Of a stretch of 64,000 nucleotides of DNA, positions 1 to 11,042 are shown piece after piece. A program made the position numbers and the translations under genes. The DNA comes from Microcoleus sp. FACHB-68 (lineage in GTDB: Bacteria; Cyanobacteriota; Cyanobacteriia; Cyanobacteriales; Oscillatoriaceae). Location: the NCBI RefSeq assembly GCF_014695715.1, contig NZ_JACJOT010000005.1, forward strand, positions 1-64,000. The letters are read 5' to 3'. Each line of letters opens with the position of its first letter. Within the stretch, counting starts at the first letter, position 1. Under the pieces are notes generated by a model that saw only the letters and a list, made by a program, of their open reading frames with translations, did not search any database and was not told the DNA's origin.

Positions 1-168
<168 letters not shown>

Positions 169-182
169 AATGCTGGATTTTG

Positions 183-218
183 GATTTTAGCGTTTGAATG
201 CATTTCAAAGCTAAAATC
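183..218 (+). repeat. Hairpin of GATTTTAG repeat family between psbD and psbC
   Basis: A strong inverted repeat: GATTTTAGC at 183-191 and TTTGAA at 193-198 pair with TTCAAA at 204-209 and GCTAAAATC at 210-218. There is one bulged G at 192 and a 5-base loop, giving 15 base pairs. Similar GATTTTAG(ATT) words occur upstream of murG and inside the coding region near 16130. No T-run follows, so it is not an obvious terminator. It may affect RNA stability or the balance of psbD and psbC mRNA. Confidence 0.75.
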
Positions 219-277
219 TGAAATCTAAATGTAAATTTGGTATCTTGTTTTGTTGATGACAAAAGAGGTTCTACGCC

Positions 278-1666
278 GTGGAAACGCCCTTTAATAGTTC
301 AATGGTGATGGGCGGTGGTCGTGACCAAGAATCCTCAGGCTTTGCCTGGTGGGCTGGGAACGCTCGTCTAATCAATCTTTCTGGTAAATTGCTGGGTGCT
401 CACGTTGCCCACTCTGGTCTGATCGTATTCTGGGCTGGAGCGATGACTTTGTTTGAAGTCGCTCACTTCATCCCTGAAAAGCCTATGTACGAGCAAGGCT
501 TGATCTTGTTGCCTCACCTCGCAACCCAAGGTTGGGGTGTTGGCCCTGGTGGTGAAGTAATTGACATCTTCCCCTACTTTGTGGTTGGGGTGCTTCACCT
601 GATCTCCTCTGCCGTTCTCGGTTTAGGCGGTATCTATCACGCTGTTCGCGGCCCAGAAACCCTAGAAGAGTATTCTTCTTTCTTTGGGTATGACTGGAAA
701 GATAAGAACAAGATGACCACCATTCTGGGTTTCCACCTAATTGTGTTAGGAATTGGTGCCCTGCTACTGGTGATTAAAGCGATGTTCTTTGGCGGTGTTT
801 ATGACACTTGGGCACCGGGCGGCGGTGATGTGCGTGTTATTACAAACCCGACTCTGAACCCGGCAGCTATCTTTGGTTATTTGATCAAGTCTCCGTTTGG
901 TGGGGACGGTTGGATCGTTAGCGTTAATAACCTGGAAGATGTGATCGGCGGCCACATTTGGGTTGGCTTTATTTGCATTGCCGGTGGGATCTATCACGTT
1001 TTAACCAAGCCTTTTGGTTGGGCACGTCGCGCTTTCATCTGGTCTGGAGAAGCTTATCTCTCCTACAGCTTGGGCGCTTTGTCCCTGATGGGCTTTGTTG
1101 CAGCTTGCTTTGTTTGGTTTAACAACACTGTCTATCCCAGCGAATTCTACGGGCCGACCGGCGCTGAAGCGTCTCAAGCTCAAGCGATGACCTTCCTGAT
1201 TCGTGACCAGCGCTTAGGTGCTAACGTGGGTTCCGCTCAAGGGCCGACTGGTTTGGGTAAATATTTGATGCGCTCTCCCACCGGCGAAATCATCTTCGGT
1301 GGTGAAACGATGCGCTTCTGGGACTTCCAAGGTCCTTGGTTGGAGCCGCTACGTGGCCCTAACGGTCTTGACTTGAACAAAATCAAGAATGACGTTCAGC
1401 CTTGGCAAGCACGTCGCGCCGCTGAATACATGACACACGCTCCTTTGGGTTCCATCAACTCTGTGGGTGGTGTCATTACGGAAGCGAACTCATTTAACTA
1501 TGTGTCTCCTCGTGCGTGGTTGGCTTCCTTCCACTTTGTGATGGGCTTCTTCTTCTTGATCGGTCACCTGTGGCACGCGGGTCGCGCTCGTGCGGCTGCT
1601 GCCGGCTTTGAAAAGGGTATCGACCGTGAAACCGAGCCAGTGCTGTCTATGAATCCTCTTGACTAA
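278..1666 (+). CDS. psbC: Photosystem II CP43 chlorophyll-binding protein
   Basis: The 462-residue product matches CP43, the inner antenna protein that binds chlorophyll a and helps hold the oxygen-evolving cluster. Visible marks are the [20 protein letters not shown] start, the [10 protein letters not shown] stretch with E343 and R346 (equivalent to the Glu354/Arg357 pair that touches the Mn cluster), and the VLSMNPLD end. The GTG start at 278 follows an AAAGAGG ribosome-binding site at 262-268. In this frame a TGA at 257-259 closes the ORF upstream, so psbC cannot start inside psbD as it usually does in cyanobacteria. The first residues ([14 protein letters not shown]) also differ from the common MVTLSNTSMV form. 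A terminator follows at 1721-1754. Confidence 0.98.
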
Positions 1667-1720
1667 TTTAAAGCGAGAAGGATGAATGAATTCTGACTTC
1701 TAAGTTTTGAATTGCGAGGT

Positions 1721-1754
1721 GCTCCTGTGTAAAAGCAGGAGCTTCTTTTTTTTG
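1721..1754 (+). terminator. Intrinsic terminator after psbC
   Basis: GCTCCTG (1721-1727) pairs perfectly with CAGGAGC (1736-1742) around an 8-base loop and is followed by a T-rich run at 1743-1753. It lies 55 bases past the psbC stop and should end the psbD-psbC transcript. Confidence 0.85.
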
Positions 1755-1854
1755 GGGGATGGTTAGGATGCCGGTACAAAACTTAAAGTTTAAACTTCAA
1801 AAATTAAAATTTAAACTTTTATAATATTGCTGAACATTGATCGCTATATTTGCA

Positions 1855-2040
1855 ATGTCTAATTCGGATTTGAATGATGAGTTGACCTGGACGCCTGAAG
1901 CAAAGGCGAAGTTAAAGAATATTCCCTATTTTGTGCGTTCCCAGGCTCGGCAGCGAATTGAGCAGCTAGCGCGTGAGGGAGAACTCGATATGGTGACGGC
2001 TGATATCGTTGAGCAGGCAAGAATTGAGTTTGGGCAGTAG
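1855..2040 (+). CDS. Standalone PCP_red-domain small protein
   Basis: The 61-residue product ([12 protein letters not shown]… to …EQARIEFGQ) resembles the small C-terminal PCP_red domain of the light-independent protochlorophyllide reductase subunit ChlB. The recognisable parts are [18 protein letters not shown] near residues 11-28 and the helical ending [13 protein letters not shown]. Here it stands alone without a catalytic domain. The ATG at 1855 fits the family; an in-frame TTG at 1837 would add six unlikely residues. It sits between the psbC terminator and a K+ channel gene on the other strand. Its function as a separate protein is not known; a role in chlorophyll synthesis is inference from the domain only. 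Confidence 0.8.
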
Positions 2041-2044
2041 AGGG

Positions 2045-2875
2045 TTAGTTGAGGTTTTTGTTTTCCTCGGATGTTTGTAGTTGAGTGCCGCAAATTTTGC
2101 AAAAACCGGCATCTTTATCGTGGAAGGATAAGCCACATCCCGAACATTGGGTGTTGATTTGGTTGGCGGTTTTAACAAATTGTTTGATTAGATCGCCGAG
2201 TTGCCAAGGAATTAAGGCGATGCCGGTTAATATCATCAGAACGGTCATTAAACGCCCCCCTGCGGAAATGGGGGTGACATCGCCAAACCCGACGGTTGTC
2301 ATGGTGACGACAGAGAAATAAACAGCATCTAAGAAAGTGGTGAACCCTTCAGAATTGACGGGATGCTCAAGTTGATAAATTAAGCCTGAGTAAACAAAGA
2401 TAATGGCAAATAAAGTGAAGAGAATGCGAGTGATAATGACACCATCTTGGGTGTTAATGTAACCAAATAATGTTTGGCGATCTAAGAATCGAATTAAACG
2501 TAAAACTCGAAACCAGCGGAAGATCCGAATAAAGCTAACATCAACCGCTCTCAAAAAAAATGGGAGAATAACAATTAAATCAATTAGGGCGTAGGGGCTA
2601 AAAAAATATTGTGTTTTGCGCTCAGCACACCAAAAGCGAAGTAAGTATTCAATCGCAAAAATGGTAAGGGTGCCGGTGTTGATAGCCTCTAAGATTTGTC
2701 GCCATTTCGCAGAAATTGGGTAAGTTTCTATGACGAAAATGACCGAGGAGAGTAAAACGATCGCTGTGATAAATAAATCAACTGCTCTCCCTGCCGGTGT
2801 TTCAATATCTTCAAGGTAAAAGGCTAATTTTTTTCTCAGTAAATGCAGTTGCAACAACTGCTGTTCAACATTCAT
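2045..2875 (-). CDS. Voltage-gated-type K+ channel with C-terminal zinc ribbon
   Basis: A 276-residue ion transport protein of the six-helix type. The S4-like segment has arginines at every third position (R117, R120, R123, R126, R129), the voltage-sensor pattern. The pore carries the K+ selectivity filter TVGFGD at 194-199, followed by a last membrane helix near 207-226. The C-terminus adds a zinc-ribbon: CxxC at 244/247 and CxxC at 259/262. The ATG at 2875 is clear. It lies tail-to-tail with the PCP_red gene, four bases apart. The channel assignment is firm; what the metal ribbon senses is unknown. Confidence 0.9.
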   Translation of the reverse strand: MNVEQQLLQLHLLRKKLAFYLEDIETPAGRAVDLFITAIVLLSSVIFVIETYPISAKWRQILEAINTGTLTIFAIEYLLRFWCAERKTQYFFSPYALIDLIVILPFFLRAVDVSFIRIFRWFRVLRLIRFLDRQTLFGYINTQDGVIITRILFTLFAIIFVYSGLIYQLEHPVNSEGFTTFLDAVYFSVVTMTTVGFGDVTPISAGGRLMTVLMILTGIALIPWQLGDLIKQFVKTANQINTQCSGCGLSFHDKDAGFCKICGTQLQTSEENKNLN

Positions 2876-3227
2876 GGTTTTTGATAGGCAGGGGATGAAA
2901 TGCTTTTGTCTGGCTCTCCGCCTCGTTATTGACTACTCCTAAAGTTGCAGATGCAGGCTAACCCAAGAGGAAAGCTTAGATTAAAATTGGTGCAAGAAAA
3001 AAGATTGATTGGCCGATCTAATTGTGTTTGCAATTCAACTAATAGCGGAATACCAATCATTTCTGGCAAGCGCTATTGTTTATCGATGGCCAATGCCAAT
3101 CAGGTTTCTTGTAAAAATTTAATGTGTTTAACAGTTTTTAAAATTAGCGCTGAGGCAATCGACAAGCGGTATATAAATGTTGTAGGGACACTTCAATTAG
3201 CAGAGATTTAAAACCAACAAACACCTA
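2876..3227. other. Intergenic region, no supported gene
   Basis: About 350 bases between the channel start and the terminator of the CBS/KAP operon. An 88-codon plus-strand frame (2945-3211) is open but has no ribosome-binding site and a composition unlike a folded protein, so it is not called. The channel promoter should lie at the left end. The GCCGG word frequent elsewhere is missing from here to about 6765. Confidence 0.5.
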
Positions 3228-3253
3228 ATGAGCAATCTAAGTAGATTGCTCAT
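3228..3253 (-). terminator. Terminator hairpin after the CBS gene
   Basis: Perfect 11-base-pair inverted repeat (ATGAGCAATCT at 3228-3238, AGATTGCTCAT at 3243-3253) with a 4-base loop. It lies just past the stop of the minus-strand CBS gene. On the minus strand it is followed by a T/G-rich stretch, so it probably ends the KAP-CBS-CBS transcript. Confidence 0.7.
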
Positions 3254-3257
3254 CGCT

Positions 3258-4337
3258 CTAGCTTTCTTTTGACCAGGCTAAAAACCGATTAAGCAAATCT
3301 ACATAGTTAACAATTCCATCCATTTCAAACTCCTTTGTTTTTTTATTATAATCACCCACTAGGATAGCTGTTGGCTTTGTAAGTCTATTTATGAATATTT
3401 CTATTAAGTCACCTATTTTTGTGTCTAATTTTACTATTTCCTTCGGTTGAATAGGCTTTGCAATATAGCTAATAGGCATTGCTGCTAAAGCTTGACTAAA
3501 TATGTTGTGTAGCAAAGTATAAATTAACGCTTCATCGACAATTCCGCTAACAGGAGTACGCCCTGTCGTCAAACCGCCTGCTGCTGTAATAGGTAAGTGT
3601 GTAGGAAAAAATGAAAGGTTTTCTATATTAATAAGCGCTTGAGATAATTGATCATCCTGTTTCAAAGTATACACGCTTCTAGTACATATAGTGGCTACTT
3701 TTTCTTGTAAAAAAGAATCAGTTCCTCTGTCTTTCATCTCTATGATTAGTTGGAGCGCATCAATATAAGACCACATCCTTCTAACTTCAAACCCACCATT
3801 GTCAGGATCATGTCTTACAATAGGCAGGGTGCGATATTTTATTTTTCCATCAGCTGCATCAATAAGGCTTTGAAATAAGTCGTTTAAGAAAAGGCTGTCT
3901 AGAATATGAACGGCATTGCCCGAAAAATTTTCTAGTTCTATGGAAAAAGCCTCTTCAATAGTTATAGATTGGTTTTTTAAAATAAAGGCATTAACTTCTT
4001 GTAGAAGAGCTATAAGTTGAGTCTGGTTATTGGCAAAATATTTTTTTGGTAGCTTGTCGCCAGGAGGAAGAAATTTCAGTAAATCCACAAGACTAATAAT
4101 ACCAATTAGTTCCTTATTCCTATCTTCCATAATTGGTATGCTTGGTATAGCTTTTAGTATACTGTCACAGCATTTTATAACAAGTGCTAATTCCGACAAT
4201 GTGTCTTTTGGCTTCTTAAATGTAAACTGTCTCATCGTGGGATCATCTAATTTTAACTCTTTAACACAGGCCATTATTTGTTGATCGTACAAGTCGGCAA
4301 AAAAACCTTTGTCTGATTTTTGATTAGTGTCAGGCAT
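3258..4337 (-). CDS. CBS-domain protein B of KAP operon
   Basis: A 359-residue protein built of CBS-type units. The clearest one ends GIISLVDLLKFLP near residues 78-92, and a final one ends GIVNYVDLLNRFL near 340-352. CBS pairs usually bind adenine nucleotides and act as switches. It is a paralogue of the upstream 357-residue gene: both have a Pro-rich linker after the first unit (LPPGDKLPKKYF here, FPPPDSSLPPEYK there) and a matching MPI..I..P segment before the last unit. No membrane helix or enzyme domain is visible. It starts 24 bases after its neighbour and is last in the operon before a terminator. AT-rich and free of the GCCGG word. Ligand and target unknown. Confidence 0.75.
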   Translation of the reverse strand: MPDTNQKSDKGFFADLYDQQIMACVKELKLDDPTMRQFTFKKPKDTLSELALVIKCCDSILKAIPSIPIMEDRNKELIGIISLVDLLKFLPPGDKLPKKYFANNQTQLIALLQEVNAFILKNQSITIEEAFSIELENFSGNAVHILDSLFLNDLFQSLIDAADGKIKYRTLPIVRHDPDNGGFEVRRMWSYIDALQLIIEMKDRGTDSFLQEKVATICTRSVYTLKQDDQLSQALINIENLSFFPTHLPITAAGGLTTGRTPVSGIVDEALIYTLLHNIFSQALAAMPISYIAKPIQPKEIVKLDTKIGDLIEIFINRLTKPTAILVGDYNKKTKEFEMDGIVNYVDLLNRFLAWSKES

Positions 4338-4361
4338 TTTGAATTACTCTCCCTAATTTAT

Positions 4362-5435
4362 TTACTGAAAATTGAAGTAAAAAAACTGTAAGACATCTTT
4401 TGGAGTTATAATTCCTAATGGAATTTCATGATTTTCTTTATTTTTAGTAACAATAACAACAGCTTCTCTACCCTTGTCTAGAAAAGCTTTGATAACTTCG
4501 CTTATTGCTTGTTTTGACTCTATTAAGTCTAATTTAGTAACAGGCTCCATTATTTCTTTTATGGGCATCTTTATCAAATGATGGTAGAGTGGATGAGCCA
4601 TAGGAGTAACTTTGCGTCTGTTTATCCACCCTAGTAAATTGTCTCGTTCATCACATATTAGTATGTATTCTCTTGGGATATATTCTATACATAAGTAAGC
4701 ACTAGCCAAAGTGGTTTCTGGAGGTAGGGTGAATAAATCTATAAATTTTTTTTTAAAGGCAACTTCTACAGATGTGTTGATTAAAAGTGGCTCATCTCTA
4801 ATAAATTTTAATATATCTTTATCTGAAACTACACCTACAAGATTCTGGTTTTCATTTAAAACGGGTATTATCTTTTCTTCAATATAATGCCCATAGGGTT
4901 TCACTAGCTCTTCCATTGCACCAAGAATTGTTGCTCGGTTCTTGTAAAAACAGCGAAAAAAAGGCATCACACCAAGTATATCTTCGATAGGTTGTTTTTT
5001 TGCATGATTTATATAATTTCTAACTTTTTTGTGAAAATTCCTATCGTTAATTTTGTACTCTGGTGGAAGGCTTGAATCTGGTGGTGGAAACTTACATAGA
5101 ATTAATGTATCATTCACAAATCCTAAAAATTTGTTATCTTGATCGACAACTATAATGTAATTGATATTTTGTAGCATTAAAAATGTTAAAGCATTGATTA
5201 AAGGTTCAGAAGCTTTCATTACACAAAAGTCATAACTGATAACTTTTTCTACGTCTTCTAGTAAATCATCATATTTCAGCATTGTTTTATTCTCAGAATT
5301 CAGATTACTTGACTGAGATTCTATGCTAACTTTCTCTTCAAGTTTATACATTGTAGTTGGAGAAAAATCCTTCGACGGCTTGCACCCAATCAAGTTAAAA
5401 ACTTTATTTAAGATACATTTAAGGTATATTATCAC
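4362..5435 (-). CDS. CBS-domain protein A of KAP operon
   Basis: A 357-residue protein with about four CBS units. Visible unit endings are FLGFVNDTLILCKF (near 108-121), LVGVVSDKDILKFI (near 200-213), LLGWINRRKV (near 270-279) and PLGIITPKDVLQFF (near 338-351). The N-terminus (MIIYLKCILNKVFNLIG) is hydrophobic and might be a membrane-touching helix. The GTG start overlaps the stop of the KAP NTPase gene as GTGA (5432-5435), which implies translational coupling. CBS pairs commonly sense ATP, ADP, AMP, SAM or cyclic dinucleotides, so it may report nucleotide state to the NTPase. That link is inference from gene order. Confidence 0.78.
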   Translation of the reverse strand: MIIYLKCILNKVFNLIGCKPSKDFSPTTMYKLEEKVSIESQSSNLNSENKTMLKYDDLLEDVEKVISYDFCVMKASEPLINALTFLMLQNINYIIVVDQDNKFLGFVNDTLILCKFPPPDSSLPPEYKINDRNFHKKVRNYINHAKKQPIEDILGVMPFFRCFYKNRATILGAMEELVKPYGHYIEEKIIPVLNENQNLVGVVSDKDILKFIRDEPLLINTSVEVAFKKKFIDLFTLPPETTLASAYLCIEYIPREYILICDERDNLLGWINRRKVTPMAHPLYHHLIKMPIKEIMEPVTKLDLIESKQAISEVIKAFLDKGREAVVIVTKNKENHEIPLGIITPKDVLQFFYFNFQ

Positions 5436-6661
5436 TGTACCCTTACCAATTTAAGTATAATTTCAAGTTGGTTTTGTTGGCTAATTTTTGTACTGTTCTC
5501 GGAAGTTACCTCTATAAATTTCATGAGTTCAGAATCATTTTGGAATTTACTATTTTCAGGAAAATTAATAAATTTTGTAAAAAAATCCTCATTATTATCA
5601 ATAATACGACTATCTTTACGGTTAAATTCCCTTTTGAATTCTACAAAGAAATCAGGGTAATTCATTTGAATTAATAAGACCCTGGCTAGCCTCGGATACA
5701 ATTCTTCTCTGACGCCAATAGGTTTTGCTATTCTTTCAATTAAATTAAAAGAATGTAAAAATCTCTTTGCTTTACGAATATTGTAGCTAGTACCTTCTAA
5801 GACCATATCCCACATTTCTTGATCGTCTCTCCACTTATTGCTTATCCTAGCTTTTAACAAATTCTTAAGTTCTTCTGGAGACTTGTCCGGGAGATAAAAA
5901 TCTAGTTGTATCATTTTTTCTATGTATTCTTTACCAGTTATTTTTAAACTTGCTAAATATCTTTTTCTCACTCCTTGTTCAATAATTTTTTTATCAACTC
6001 CTATAAAAAAGACACATTTTTCATAATCCAAATAAAGCTTTATAGCCTCAAGTACATTTAAAGCATTTTCTGGAAGACATCGATCTAAATCATCTATAAA
6101 TATTATTAACTTACCATCTAAATCAACATACTTATCTACCAACTTCTTGAAATCAATTTCAAATCGATTAACTAAATTATAGTGTTGTTTATCGATAAGG
6201 TATAAAGCTTCAAGTTCTTCAGTCTTTAATTCACCTAACTTAATACCTAAATTCTTCTCAAGCAAAACATTCAATAAAGCACTAGGAAGTTGCGTAAAAG
6301 CAGCATTTCCATACAAATTAAGTTTTTCTCGTAGCTCAATGCAACCATGTTTAAGTCTTAATTCTTCTTCTATTTCAATAAGAATTGTCTTAATTAAAGC
6401 ATTCCATACTGCCTCTTTACCTTCATACTTCCAGGGGTTGAACCAGATAGTTTTATACTTATTATGTTCAGATAATTCAGCAAATTTTTTCTCTATACAA
6501 CGCATCAATGTAGTTTTTCCACTCCCCCAAGAACCAAAAATCCCTATGGTAAATGCTCCTTCAGCTTTATCAATTGCTTCTCTAGCTATGCCGCATAGAT
6601 GAGTAGCATATGTCTCAAATTCTGCCCCCGGGGTTGGGTTAGGTCCATCACCAAACTTCAT
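5432..6661 (-). CDS. KAP-family P-loop NTPase
   Basis: A 409-residue NTPase of the KAP family. Walker A is GSWGSGKT at 43-50, the family-typical WFNPWKYE follows at 73-80, and Walker B is LIIFIDDLDRC at 185-195. Many KAP proteins carry membrane helices inserted between Walker A and B; none is seen here, so this looks like a soluble form. The ATG at 6661 is preceded by AAGGAG. The gene starts 86 bases after argH on the same strand and overlaps the next gene by four bases. KAP ATPases are poorly understood; some occur with defence or membrane-scaffold genes. The family call is firm and the function is unknown. Confidence 0.88.
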   Translation of the reverse strand: MKFGDGPNPTPGAEFETYATHLCGIAREAIDKAEGAFTIGIFGSWGSGKTTLMRCIEKKFAELSEHNKYKTIWFNPWKYEGKEAVWNALIKTILIEIEEELRLKHGCIELREKLNLYGNAAFTQLPSALLNVLLEKNLGIKLGELKTEELEALYLIDKQHYNLVNRFEIDFKKLVDKYVDLDGKLIIFIDDLDRCLPENALNVLEAIKLYLDYEKCVFFIGVDKKIIEQGVRKRYLASLKITGKEYIEKMIQLDFYLPDKSPEELKNLLKARISNKWRDDQEMWDMVLEGTSYNIRKAKRFLHSFNLIERIAKPIGVREELYPRLARVLLIQMNYPDFFVEFKREFNRKDSRIIDNNEDFFTKFINFPENSKFQNDSELMKFIEVTSENSTKISQQNQLEIILKLVRVQ

Positions 6662-6747
6662 ACGTCTGTCGCTCCTTTTAAGCGTAAATTTTTTGGAGTT
6701 GCCTGTTCAGCATTTCACCCTAAATCTGACAGTCAATAACTTGCTTG

Positions 6748-8139
6748 TCAAGCCTGAGAGTTCAGCCGGCATTTTGCCTCCTCAATTGCTTTCCTCACCG
6801 GCGCAAAACCTGTACCGCCATAACTATTTCGCGCAGCAACAACCTGCCTGGGTGTAATTGCCTCATAAATATCCCCCTCAAAAGCGGGATGCAATTCTTT
6901 CCACTCTTCCAAACTCAAATCCTTGAGCAATTTCCCGGCAGCTAAGCAAGTTTTTACCACCTTTCCCACAAGATTATAAGCTTCTCGGAAAGGCACGCCC
7001 TTTGTTGCTAAATAATCTGCCACATCTGTCGCATTCGAGAAGTCTTCCGCCACTGCTTCAGCCAGACGCTCACTGCGAAATTCTATGCCTTCCCGCAGCA
7101 AAATTGTCATCGCTTCTAAACAAGCTTTAACGGTTTTAACGGCATCAAATAGCGCTTCTTTATCTTCTTGCAAGTCTTTGTTATAGGCTAAGGGCAATCC
7201 CTTCATTAATACCAACATTGCTTGCAAATGCCCAAATACACGCCCTGTTTTTCCCCTCACTAATTCAGGAACGTCGGGGTTTTTCTTCTGGGGCATAATA
7301 CTAGAGCCGGTGGCGCAGCTATCTTTGAGGGTGACAAAGCCAAACTCATGAGATGCCCAAAAAATTACTTCCTCAGATAGCCGGCTGAGGTGAACCATAA
7401 TTAAGCTAGCCGCACAGAGAAATTCAATCGCAAAATCGCGATCACTGACGCCATCTAAACTGTTGGCATAAACATTGCTAAACCCCAGCAGCTCAGCCGT
7501 ATAATGCCGATCAATGGGGAAAGTGGTGCCGGCAAGTGCACCTGAACCTAGGGGACATACATCCACGCGCCGGCACACATCTCCTAGGCGTTCCCAGTCG
7601 CGCTGAGACATTTCAAAATAAGCCAGCAGGTGATGAGCCAAACTCACTGGCTGCGCTCGTTGCAGGTGCGTGTAACCGGGAATCAGCGTCTCAATGTTCT
7701 GTTGGGCTAAATTCAGCAAAACTTCCTGAAATTCACGCACTTGTTCTCGAATTTGACCGATTTGATCGCGCAAATACAGCCTAGTATCTGTGCCAACTTG
7801 ATCATTGCGAGAGCGTGCCGTGTGCAGCTTTTTACCGGCATCCCCAACAATTTCTGTCAGCCGGCGCTCAACGGCAAAGTGTACATCCTCAGCATCAACG
7901 CCTGGTTTAAAAAATCCCTGGCGATATTCTTGCCGGATCTTCTCTAAACCTGCCACCAGATTTTCGCCTTCCTCCGCTGAGATAATGCCGGTTTTTGCCA
8001 GCATCTTGGCATGAGCGACAGAGCCTGTGATGTCATATTCAATTAGTTCAATGTCAAAATCAATACTGGCATTGAACCGTGCAATGGCGGGATGCAACGC
8101 TGATTCAAATCGCTGGCTCCAAGTCTTTTGTTCTGTCAC
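6748..8139 (-). CDS. argH: Argininosuccinate lyase
   Basis: A 463-residue cytosolic enzyme that splits argininosuccinate into arginine and fumarate, the last step of arginine synthesis. Family marks are HTARSRNDQ at 106-114, YTHLQRAQP at 156-164 with the catalytic-region histidine, and the fumarase/lyase signature [12 protein letters not shown] at 278-289. The start is a GTG at 8139. Length is normal. The gene is rich in the GCCGG word, in sharp contrast to the KAP operon that begins 86 bases downstream, so argH is core sequence at the edge of the foreign-looking block. Confidence 0.97.
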
Positions 8140-8257
8140 GGCAGTTTCTCGCTTTGCCTTATTCTGAGGGGCTAGGGTTTATTGATTGTTAGGTAATACC
8201 TGTAAGGTTTAACTTTTTAGCTTATTAAAAACCTCACTGCTAACAATTAGCAAATTA

Positions 8258-8506
8258 TTAAGAAGCCGTGATATTCCGAATTGTGTAGCCAATCACAATT
8301 CCTGCCAACATTGCCCAAACTTGGCCGGTTTGGATAAAATTGTTAAAGGCTTTTTGCATATCTGTTAAAACGTTTGTCTCGCTGACTTGTTGAGCCAGTA
8401 CCGCTCCATTGAACAAGGACTTCCAAAGGAAAAGCTGCACAGAATCACTGCTGACTGTCATGCCGGCTAACCCTGCTGTCGCTTGGTGAATTAAGTTAAT
8501 GACCAT
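8258..8506 (-). CDS. Small membrane protein, unknown
   Basis: An 82-residue product with a good AAGGAGA site in front of ATG at 8506. The middle is Gln/Asn-rich and the C-terminus has one likely membrane helix (VWAMLAGIVIGYTIRNI, about residues 63-79). An N-terminal hydrophobic patch (INLIHQATAGLAGMTV) may be a second weak segment. No family is recognised. It lies alone between argH and a phosphatase gene, with 118 bases to the argH start. Confidence 0.65.
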   Translation of the reverse strand: MVINLIHQATAGLAGMTVSSDSVQLFLWKSLFNGAVLAQQVSETNVLTDMQKAFNNFIQTGQVWAMLAGIVIGYTIRNITAS

Positions 8507-8874
8507 TTTTTCTCCTTACACAAAATCTAAGCTGACTATTGAGGTTTGACGGTAAATACATGACTTTCCTCACGTCAAGGGAAAGCCACTGAAGTGAGAA
8601 CTACTAAAAGTTATACCATTTTTAATTTCGATTTTTGTATTAATAAAACCAATCACTTAATGAATTTCCAGCAGCCATAAATCATACAAGCCGATATAAC
8701 CCTTTGAATGCAGCTAGCTCATCATTAAATGTTGCATATTTTTGGCATTTGTAAAGGGGTTATCTGCCTGAATTTGGTTTCTGCTCACAGCGGCCAGTTT
8801 CTCACAGTAAAAAGCCGGCAAAATATGAGTGTTAGATGGGAGGTGAGCTTTACCGTCTCACCCTTCACCTTTGC
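8507..8874. other. Intergenic region
   Basis: About 370 bases between the small membrane protein and the end of the PP2C gene. It should hold the promoter of the former. No hairpin with a T-run and no small ORF with a ribosome-binding site was found. Confidence 0.5.
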
Positions 8875-10359
8875 CTACTCCCCTGTTACCGCAGTCTTTT
8901 GAACTGAAAGTCCTGCAGCAATCTCAGAAGATTGCACCTGCATGACCACAAGCGTCATATCATCACTATTGTGGTTATTTGGGCCAATGAACTGCTGCAC
9001 CCGCTCAAACAGATAATCTAAAATCGCTTGGGGATTCGGGCAATGCTGGCAAGCCCATTCAAAAGCGCCGATCAGATTTTCCTCATCGAAACGCTCACCA
9101 CTTTGGTTAGCCGCATCGGTAAACCCATCCGTGAAATAAATAATCGTATCTCCGGGGTGAAGTTGCACTTGAGCTTCTTGGTAGGCGGTATCTGCATCCA
9201 AACCAATCAGCATTCCCAGCGTATCTAAGCGTTTGATCGCGCCGGTGCCGGCCTGCCACAACAGTGGGGGGTGGTGAGCAGCATTACTGTAAGACAGGAT
9301 ACGCGTTTGTGGGTCGTACTCGGAATAAAATAGCGTTACAAATCGGTGGGAATTTTCTAAATCGGTATACATGACCCGATTTAAATGTTGCAGAATCCGA
9401 GCCGGCGAGTGGCCATTAAGAACTTCCGCCCGCAGCATTCCTCGCGTCATGGTCATAATCAGGCCGGCAGGCACTCCCTTACCCATGACATCCCCGATCA
9501 CCACACTCCAGGGACCGGCTGGGTTACCACCAGGCGTTTTAGAGCGCACCTGTTCACCTTGCGTGCGCCTCTCACAATCGTGGCTGGTGGGAATGAAATC
9601 GTAGTAATCTCCCCCCACGCGGTTCGCCGTTTGGCACTTTGCCGCTAGTTCAACGCCTTGTATTTTGGGACATTGGCGAGGCAGCAGGCGCAGCTGGATT
9701 TCTGCCCCAATTTCCAGTTCCCGATCTAGGCGTTCTTTCTGGCGCAGTTCAACCGTCAGTTCGTCATTTTCAATGGCCACTGCGGTTTGGTCAGCCACTA
9801 ACCGGACTAACTTCTGGCGCGTTTCCGTCCAGGTGTATTCGGGATCACGGCTAAAAACATACAGACGCCCTCGTTCAGCATTCTTAATCAAAATGGCAGT
9901 GCCAAACAATTGCACATCTGCGCCTAATGATCGGCTGACTTCACTATCGAGGGTGGCAGTGGAAGGCGTTAGGGGGGCAGCAGTTGAGGAAGAGGCTGCT
10001 ACTTGACGGGTTGCTGCCTCCAGCGCTTGGCGGATATCCTGACACTGCCGGCCCTCCTGGCAGTGCAACCGCTGTAGCCTCACTTGGCCATTTGGTTTAA
10101 ATAGCACCAGCGCCCCCCCATCTGCATCAGTCACACGACTGGCGACAAGGGGAATTAGCTCTAAAAACTGATTGAGATTGTTAAAGCTTCGCAGAGCGAA
10201 ACCGAGGGAACTGAGCAAATCCTGAATTTTGTGCTGTTCCCGCTGCAAACGTGCAACTAAGTCTTTGAGGGCAAAAACGGGTGTCATGTCCGCAGAGGCA
10301 CTACTGTCAGCAGGATTCACAGGTTGCGATGGCCGGCGAGGCAGAGGTACAGCAGTCAT
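8875..10359 (-). CDS. GAF-domain PP2C (SpoIIE/RsbU-type) phosphatase
   Basis: A 494-residue regulator: a coiled segment, a GAF-like domain (LELIPLVASRVTDADGGALV onward), a short linker helix, then a SpoIIE/RsbU-type phosphatase. Metal-binding motifs of PP2C are visible: VGGDYYDF, VIGDVMGKG, YFTDGFTDA and NSDDMTLVV. Such enzymes dephosphorylate anti-sigma-antagonist proteins in partner-switching pathways. The ATG at 10359 is chosen because the frame further upstream (to 10680) reads as unlikely, low-structure sequence; no strong ribosome-binding site settles it. An RsbW-like ATPase is encoded at 26279-26704 and could belong to the same pathway, but that is inference. Confidence 0.88.
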   Translation of the reverse strand: MTAVPLPRRPSQPVNPADSSASADMTPVFALKDLVARLQREQHKIQDLLSSLGFALRSFNNLNQFLELIPLVASRVTDADGGALVLFKPNGQVRLQRLHCQEGRQCQDIRQALEAATRQVAASSSTAAPLTPSTATLDSEVSRSLGADVQLFGTAILIKNAERGRLYVFSRDPEYTWTETRQKLVRLVADQTAVAIENDELTVELRQKERLDRELEIGAEIQLRLLPRQCPKIQGVELAAKCQTANRVGGDYYDFIPTSHDCERRTQGEQVRSKTPGGNPAGPWSVVIGDVMGKGVPAGLIMTMTRGMLRAEVLNGHSPARILQHLNRVMYTDLENSHRFVTLFYSEYDPQTRILSYSNAAHHPPLLWQAGTGAIKRLDTLGMLIGLDADTAYQEAQVQLHPGDTIIYFTDGFTDAANQSGERFDEENLIGAFEWACQHCPNPQAILDYLFERVQQFIGPNNHNSDDMTLVVMQVQSSEIAAGLSVQKTAVTGE

Positions 10360-11042
10360 CAATAATATGCCAGAGGCGAGTTTAAGGACGAGCGAAACGG
10401 TTGGGTAGTTAGGAACTGAGGAAGCTTGCAGAAGTTCCACACAAAGACCGCGAGAGCCGCAGTCTGGACTCAGTTCTGCTAAATATAGCTGCTTTTTGGT
10501 ATTTGGACACCTATAAGTTGTCCATGATATCCACTTAGGGCGATTCCCGGAAGAATACGCCGGTGATTTTTGTAAAAATTCTAACGAATGCGAAGCGGGA
10601 TCATCGAATACTGTTCTCCCAATTCCGAACGCTTGCATTTGAGATTGACCCAGAGGCCGGTGAGGGATGTGCGAAAGCAATGCCCGCGCACGCTCTTGGA
10701 CGCCGAACGCATTTCTAGGTCGCTCACATCTGAGGGCTGAACTGGTGAACGGTTACAAGTTGTTGCCGGTTCAAGTGTCAAAACGACAGTAACGGTCCTT
10801 ATTTGGAGTCCTGCTAATGGACAAACAGGATGCTCTTCAGGGAAGTTTTACCGGATCATTGTACTCCAGTCAATGCCATTAGCGGAGTCAAGTTGTTAAT
10901 TTTTCTAGTTATAGCAGTAAAAATTTAGTTCAGCAGCACTCAAAACACAGAACTTCTTCTCTTCGCCTCCAAACTCAAAACGGGGCATGGGGCATGGCGC
11001 ATGGGGGATTCAAAACTACCTCTGTCTCTCCCAACTCACAAC
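10360..11042. other. Intergenic region with short tandem repeat
   Basis: About 680 bases between the PP2C gene and the next gene. The phosphatase frame stays open to 10680, so its true start could lie in this stretch. A GGGGCATGGGGCATGGCGCA tandem repeat sits near 10982-11004; a related repeat with the opposite orientation is at about 42347-42383. No RNA gene or small ORF could be supported. Confidence 0.5.

Follow-up and report, generated by a model that had tools for sequence, protein, structure and literature searches.

What brings a P-loop NTPase of the KAP family together with two proteins built of CBS units in one compact set of genes? The question is raised by a locus in the first 64,000 nucleotides of contig NZ_JACJOT010000005.1 of Microcoleus sp. 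FACHB-68 (this whole stretch is the window referred to below), where three such genes follow one another on the minus strand. Little is known of the inputs to KAP NTPases, although the family occurs widely; the cassette offers a concrete, testable input for one KAP subfamily. The original prediction, made from the sequence alone, had proposed a possible nucleotide-sensing operon, in which paired CBS sensors could control the NTPase. In this study, the three genes were compared with profile, genome, structure and literature collections. The set recurs in other cyanobacterial genomes, where, as far as the upstream DNA could be read, it is preceded by an additional adenylate kinase gene (adk), and we put the probability at roughly one in two that the cassette is an NTPase switch gated by adenylate status, with adk-KAP-CBS1-CBS2 as its fuller form. 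The elements of the window locus are as follows.

5432–6661, minus strand: KAP, a soluble KAP family P-loop NTPase of 409 amino acids (PF07693; Walker A GSWGSGKT, Walker B LIIFIDDLDRC)
4362–5435, minus strand: CBS1, 357 amino acids, four CBS units (PF00571), with a GTG start that overlaps the KAP stop
3258–4337, minus strand: CBS2, 359 amino acids, a divergent paralogue of CBS1 (PF00571; hhalign to the CBS1 profile)
3227–3254, minus strand: terminator-like hairpin directly after the CBS2 stop, with a 12-bp stem, a 4-nt loop and a weak T tail
2883–6727, no strand: segment without counterpart in the sister genome G430, with collinear flanks of about 94% identity

Gene identity and recurrence in other genomes

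The three minus-strand open reading frames have the positions and lengths first assigned to them, and their tight packing is as claimed: the end of KAP overlaps the start of CBS1 by the four bases GTGA, and 24 nt separate CBS1 from CBS2. The window KAP matches Pfam PF07693 (E = 1.8e-38; 132.9 bits against a cut-off of 20), in agreement with the identity and the two Walker motifs originally proposed, and GSWGSGKT and FIDDLDRC are unchanged in all seven aligned KAP copies. The protein is 39–44% identical to the KAPs of the six other full-length cassette copies; a search of solved structures with the KAP sequence gave no match. Profile search likewise upheld the CBS assignments: PF00571 matches CBS1 over four stretches (E = 3.8e-18, 66.0 bits) and CBS2 at E = 2e-8 (34.9 bits; cut-off 24), and the profiles of both families match solved CBS proteins. 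Despite a pairwise identity of only 20%, the two family profiles align by hhalign over 281 columns (E = 5.8e-25, probability 99.6), which bears out the predicted paralogy, and the CBS1 and CBS2 families are taken to be ancient full-length paralogues.

Failure of the CBS assignments, or of co-occurrence in other genomes, had been set beforehand as what would refute the proposed system; the proposal withstood both tests. A scan of 84,980 genomes with KAP returned one close match, in a Microcoleus metagenome-assembled genome (MAG; 39% identity, full length), where CBS1 and CBS2 follow. Ten matches were obtained with a KAP profile in 391 genomes of the same order; two lie outside such a set, and the remaining eight, the window included, are KAP-CBS1-CBS2 in identical order and strand. 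The cassette is present in 6 of the 62 genomes of the family of the MAG, and a class-wide sample of 380 genomes yielded no further one. A CBS1 search (E ≤ 1e-12) of 346 genomes of the order gave six matches, every one in a genome with the KAP cassette, and CBS1 without KAP was found in none. By flank comparison the cassettes occupy six unrelated chromosomal sites (window; G565/G548; G557; G462; G575; G695/G675), the flanks of which do not align except for a divergent helix-turn-helix (HTH)-like gene described below.

An adenylate kinase gene accompanies the cassette in relatives

Upstream DNA could be read in six relatives, and in each of them adk lies directly upstream of KAP on the same strand, at a distance of 26–126 bp. 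ADK matches number three per genome in those relatives (the third is partial in G462) and two in the window genome and two of its sisters, and the cassette adk comes in addition to the housekeeping copies. The cassette adks form one tree group (support 85/97, 80% of bootstrap trees) and score 190.8, 199.2, 188.2 and 192.7 bits against TIGR01351 (cut-off 168); the cassette Adk aligns with the solved Adk 1p4s through the P-loop, AMP-site and LID motifs. It is this extra gene in the operon of the relatives, which is not visible in the window, that most strongly supports the adenine-nucleotide reading. The linked adk had escaped the earlier account, as had the low GC content of the cassette and the cassette-less slot in a sister genome that are presented below.

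Upstream of adk stands a small divergent HTH-like gene, homologous in G565, G462, G695 and G675, which is the sole flank common to unrelated sites; G557 and G575 carry a different HTH-like gene at that position. The divergent gene at the G557 cassette (L061:10873-11691, plus strand) encodes an HTH-like N-terminus, a pentapeptide repeat and a C-terminus with EPDFLIFHQGKLGILEI, which to the eye appears to resemble a PD-(D/E)XK nuclease core.

Ribose-binding motifs and selection

The aspartate of the S/T-x-x-D motif in Bateman modules contacts the ribose of AMP or ATP. This residue is present in units 1–4 of CBS2 in 8/8, 6/8, 0/8 and 8/8 sequences, respectively, and in those of CBS1 in 0/8, 1/8, 0/8 and 4/8; CBS1 is largely degenerate in the ribose-binding motif across its family. 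Because CBS2 keeps the ribose-contacting aspartate and CBS1 is mostly without it, CBS2 is the likelier sensor, one that probably binds an adenylate, and CBS1 the likelier scaffold. The notion of paired nucleotide sensors calls for amendment: CBS2 alone retains the motif in most units (three of four), and CBS1 has mostly lost it.

The cassette genes are under purifying selection. The ratio of nonsynonymous (dN) to synonymous (dS) substitution rates in close pairs is 0.10 for adk, 0.28–0.39 for KAP, 0.26–0.34 for CBS1 and 0.35–0.50 for CBS2, and CBS2 is the fastest-evolving member at the protein level. Between G695 and G675 the divergent gene, adk, KAP and CBS1 are about 95–97% identical and CBS2 about 82% (L064/L065). 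In this pair CBS2 has a dN of 0.18 and a dS of 0.38 and guaA a dN of 0.04 and a dS of 0.52; dS is 0.06–0.15 in the divergent gene, adk, KAP and CBS1, and 0.20 and 0.46 in the flanking rpsD and g381. A recent exchange between the two lineages seems to have involved the block from the divergent gene to CBS1 and not CBS2. An elevated synonymous rate of CBS2 was also considered, and is weakened by the dS values of 0.20, 0.46 and 0.52 in flanking genes of the same genomes; what stays clear is the large protein-level change of CBS2.

Insertion site and mobility

The cassette is mobile. Its GC content is 32.2% compared with 47.3% in the flanks, and the genome G430 of the same genus is collinear with window positions 1–2882 and 6728–10938 at about 94% identity and is without the intervening segment. 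The corresponding slot in G430 (L099:3724-4581) holds 0.86 kb with a remnant of an ISL3 transposase and a fragment of a ParD-like antitoxin, which suggests that the interval between the argH-like and ion-channel genes is a variable insertion site. KAP and CBS1 are absent from the sampled sisters of the genus and from the other sampled members of the family. Since sisters without the cassette exist, it was either gained here or lost elsewhere in a variable slot, and its low GC content favours gain. Repeats around the cassette that might represent transposon ends were weak and at chance level, and searches of viral-contig and plasmid collections with KAP, CBS1 and CBS2 found no cassette.

A possible mechanism and its alternatives

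In the gamma subunit of AMPK, four CBS units sense adenylates and control an ATP-using enzyme, while Adk sets AMP. The cassette may be compared with AMPK and Adk as a functional analogy, with no claim of orthology; a KAP NTPase stands in place of the protein kinase, and two CBS proteins in place of one gamma subunit. Under the proposed switch, the members would form a complex, near which the dedicated Adk would interconvert ATP plus AMP and two ADP and so set the local AMP/ADP/ATP levels. CBS2, with its three intact S/T-x-x-D motifs, would sense these levels by binding an adenylate, and CBS1, which is degenerate and in several copies translationally coupled to KAP, would bridge sensor and NTPase. 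KAP would then change state and execute the output. That output is probably accessory, a response to stress or conflict, and not a housekeeping one. In the window strain, which is without a cassette adk, a resident adenylate kinase would substitute. We infer the complex, its ligand, the direction of control and the output; that KAP, CBS1 and CBS2, with adk in the fuller form, act as one functional mobile module is a proposal on which the odds look even.

Several points weigh against a switch of this kind. Gene spacing is the sole ground on which an operon is presumed, and in two genomes the gaps that precede KAP, 121–126 bp long, are wide enough to accommodate separate promoters. In the window no adk lies upstream of KAP or nearby, so that either the gene can be dispensed with or replaced, or the window copy is not complete. 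CBS units can bind S-adenosylmethionine, cyclic di-AMP, metals or nothing, and unit 3 of CBS2 is itself degenerate (aspartate in 0/8). AlphaFold models of CBS1 and CBS2, built from two-sequence alignments, reached a mean predicted local distance difference test score (pLDDT) of 35–36 and are not usable. The sample is also small, comprising eight genomes with three near copies and few families.

Among more specific explanations, anti-phage or anti-plasmid defence is a narrower form of the switch and, tentative as it is, the leading one. KAP would here be the effector or its loader, CBS2 would respond to a shift in adenylates caused by infection (or else to a nucleotide signal), and the part of Adk would be to restore the pool and keep the system off. 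Such a role is in line with the KAP matches to the known or candidate defence families QatA, PDC-S20 and PifA, with the KAP-TIR fusion that is the nearest KAP outside the cassette in the class-wide sample, with the patchy distribution of a low-GC, horizontally moved cassette, with neighbours such as VapC and a HigA-like antitoxin (and ParD in the cassette-less slot), with the fast evolution of the CBS2 protein (dN 0.18, against 0.04 for guaA in the same genome pair) and with the validation of the CBS-HEPN protein DS-11 as anti-phage (PMC13092281). However, KAP falls below the curated QatA cut-off (147 against 600 bits), the window flanks (psbC, argH) are housekeeping genes and no defence island, cyanobacteria commonly carry toxin-antitoxin genes, the core genes are without a nuclease, TIR or other toxic domain, and the viral and plasmid collections gave no cassette. 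A fully specified version, in which we place rather little confidence, is an undescribed mobile conflict system that would read adenylate energy charge: Adk and the CBS pair would restrain KAP and release it when AMP/ADP/ATP are disturbed by infection or another invader, an AMPK-like sensor being wired to a KAP effector.

The dedicated Adk beside CBS proteins would also suit a regulator that, over the light-dark cycle, tunes carbon or energy metabolism to AMP/ATP, as CBS-CP12 or AMPK might, with no part in conflict, and in a separate cluster on a Nodularia plasmid an Adk-like kinase and thioredoxin stand together with two CBS-CP12 proteins. This is improbable: a very patchy distribution, mobility of a low-GC cassette that occupies unrelated sites and the rapid evolution of CBS2 would be out of the ordinary for core metabolic regulation. 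Nor is KAP an enzyme of metabolism, and the CBS proteins from Nodularia show hardly any alignment with CBS1 (3% probability). A little less probable still is that the CBS proteins are structural partners or adaptors of KAP, or bind some other ligand, and sense no nucleotide, adk then serving, for example, general NTP supply. The loss of most ribose-binding aspartates from CBS1, the degenerate unit 3 in 8/8 CBS2 sequences and models of pLDDT 35–36 that give no reliable structure would fit it, but CBS2 retains the aspartate in 3/4 units despite its fast sequence change, and the linkage is specifically to an adenylate kinase gene. The set is unique in the window genome and its sisters are without it, as would be expected of chance neighbours with no joint function; the occurrence of the trio at six unrelated sites, the strict co-occurrence and an adk in 6/6 relatives refute that explanation.

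A role in defence would make the cassette a defence system with stand-alone CBS proteins as its sensors of energy charge, and outside defence it would still be a transferable accessory energy sensor in cyanobacteria.

Relation to known systems

The profile matches of the window KAP include the known or candidate defence families QatA, PifA and PDC-S20 (PADLOC). QatA, likewise a KAP-family NTPase in a small operon, is its best NCBIfam match (E = 5.6e-43), but the score is 147.5 bits against a cut-off of 600, and 409 residues compare with a QatA model of 628 positions. The partners also differ, since the neighbours are CBS1, CBS2 and, in relatives, Adk, which match no Qat model, in place of QatB, QatC and QatD. 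Membership in Qat was rejected on the low score and the non-Qat neighbours. The PADLOC candidate PDC-S20 aligns with KAP residues 28–386 over model positions 32–400 of 464 (E = 2.2e-30; its cut-off is not given, and other KAP models match equally), and PifA matches across the NTPase core (E = 1e-29). Both models cover the KAP-like protein alone, and no CBS or Adk partner was seen with the tools used. The KAP-TIR gene mentioned above lies at L110:766-2475 (minus strand), and the adjoining DNA, when translated, gives a short peptide motif in repeats that suggests a candidate CRISPR-type array. At L067:923-5497 (minus strand), a CBS-less relative of KAP adjoins a second KAP-like/BrxC-like NTPase and an SMC/AAA-like protein, which is possibly another multi-NTPase conflict locus.

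According to the 2026 DefensePredictor paper, no characterised defence system before DS-11 had CBS domains, and those of DS-11 are proposed to gate its effector through an adenine derivative (PMC13092281). The cassette resembles DS-11 in this respect and differs in having separate quadruple-CBS proteins and KAP where DS-11 is a single protein with a HEPN nuclease. A Pfam search for HEPN in the three window proteins gave no match, and NF053863, the NCBIfam model of DS-11, gave a weak match to a single CBS unit of CBS1 (16.9 bits against a cut-off of 260), so identity with DS-11 was rejected. Cyanobacterial CBS-CP12 proteins are also CBS proteins and lie near an Adk-like kinase on the Nodularia plasmid, but they have two CBS units plus CP12 and no KAP, and apart from the fold their profile has almost nothing in common with that of CBS1. 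The cluster on this mobilizable plasmid of Nodularia spumigena (NZ_CP020115.1, 12258–15025; L125:8001-10768) comprises an Adk-like nucleoside monophosphate kinase, thioredoxin, a small protein and the two CBS-CP12 proteins, and is a second, unrelated gathering of Adk and CBS in cyanobacteria. In the open-licence literature we found no paper combining a KAP NTPase with a CBS domain and none linking adenylate kinase, KAP and anti-phage activity. The parts of the cassette are known families; their assembly appears to be undescribed.

Hairpin and neighbouring genes

A terminator had been predicted to close the unit. The hairpin does lie directly after the CBS2 stop, but its tail is weak and poor in T, and terminator-like sites in the region number two against 2.0 expected in shuffled sequences; the case for it therefore rests on position, not on count, and it is a terminator candidate only. 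An Rfam search of the locus gave no match. The window also carries what we take to be a psbC-like photosystem gene (278–1666) and an argH-like gene (6748–8139), the latter 86 bp upstream of KAP. Just outside the inserted segment, at 2045–2875 on the minus strand, lies a gene for a voltage-gated-type ion channel with a C-terminal zinc-ribbon-like tail, which was not found in G416 and is 96% identical in G430. Near the G565 cassette, 1.2 kb beyond its end, a HigA-like protein is encoded at L041:10634-11068 (minus strand) and matches the PADLOC model PD-Lambda-2_B (E = 5e-22).

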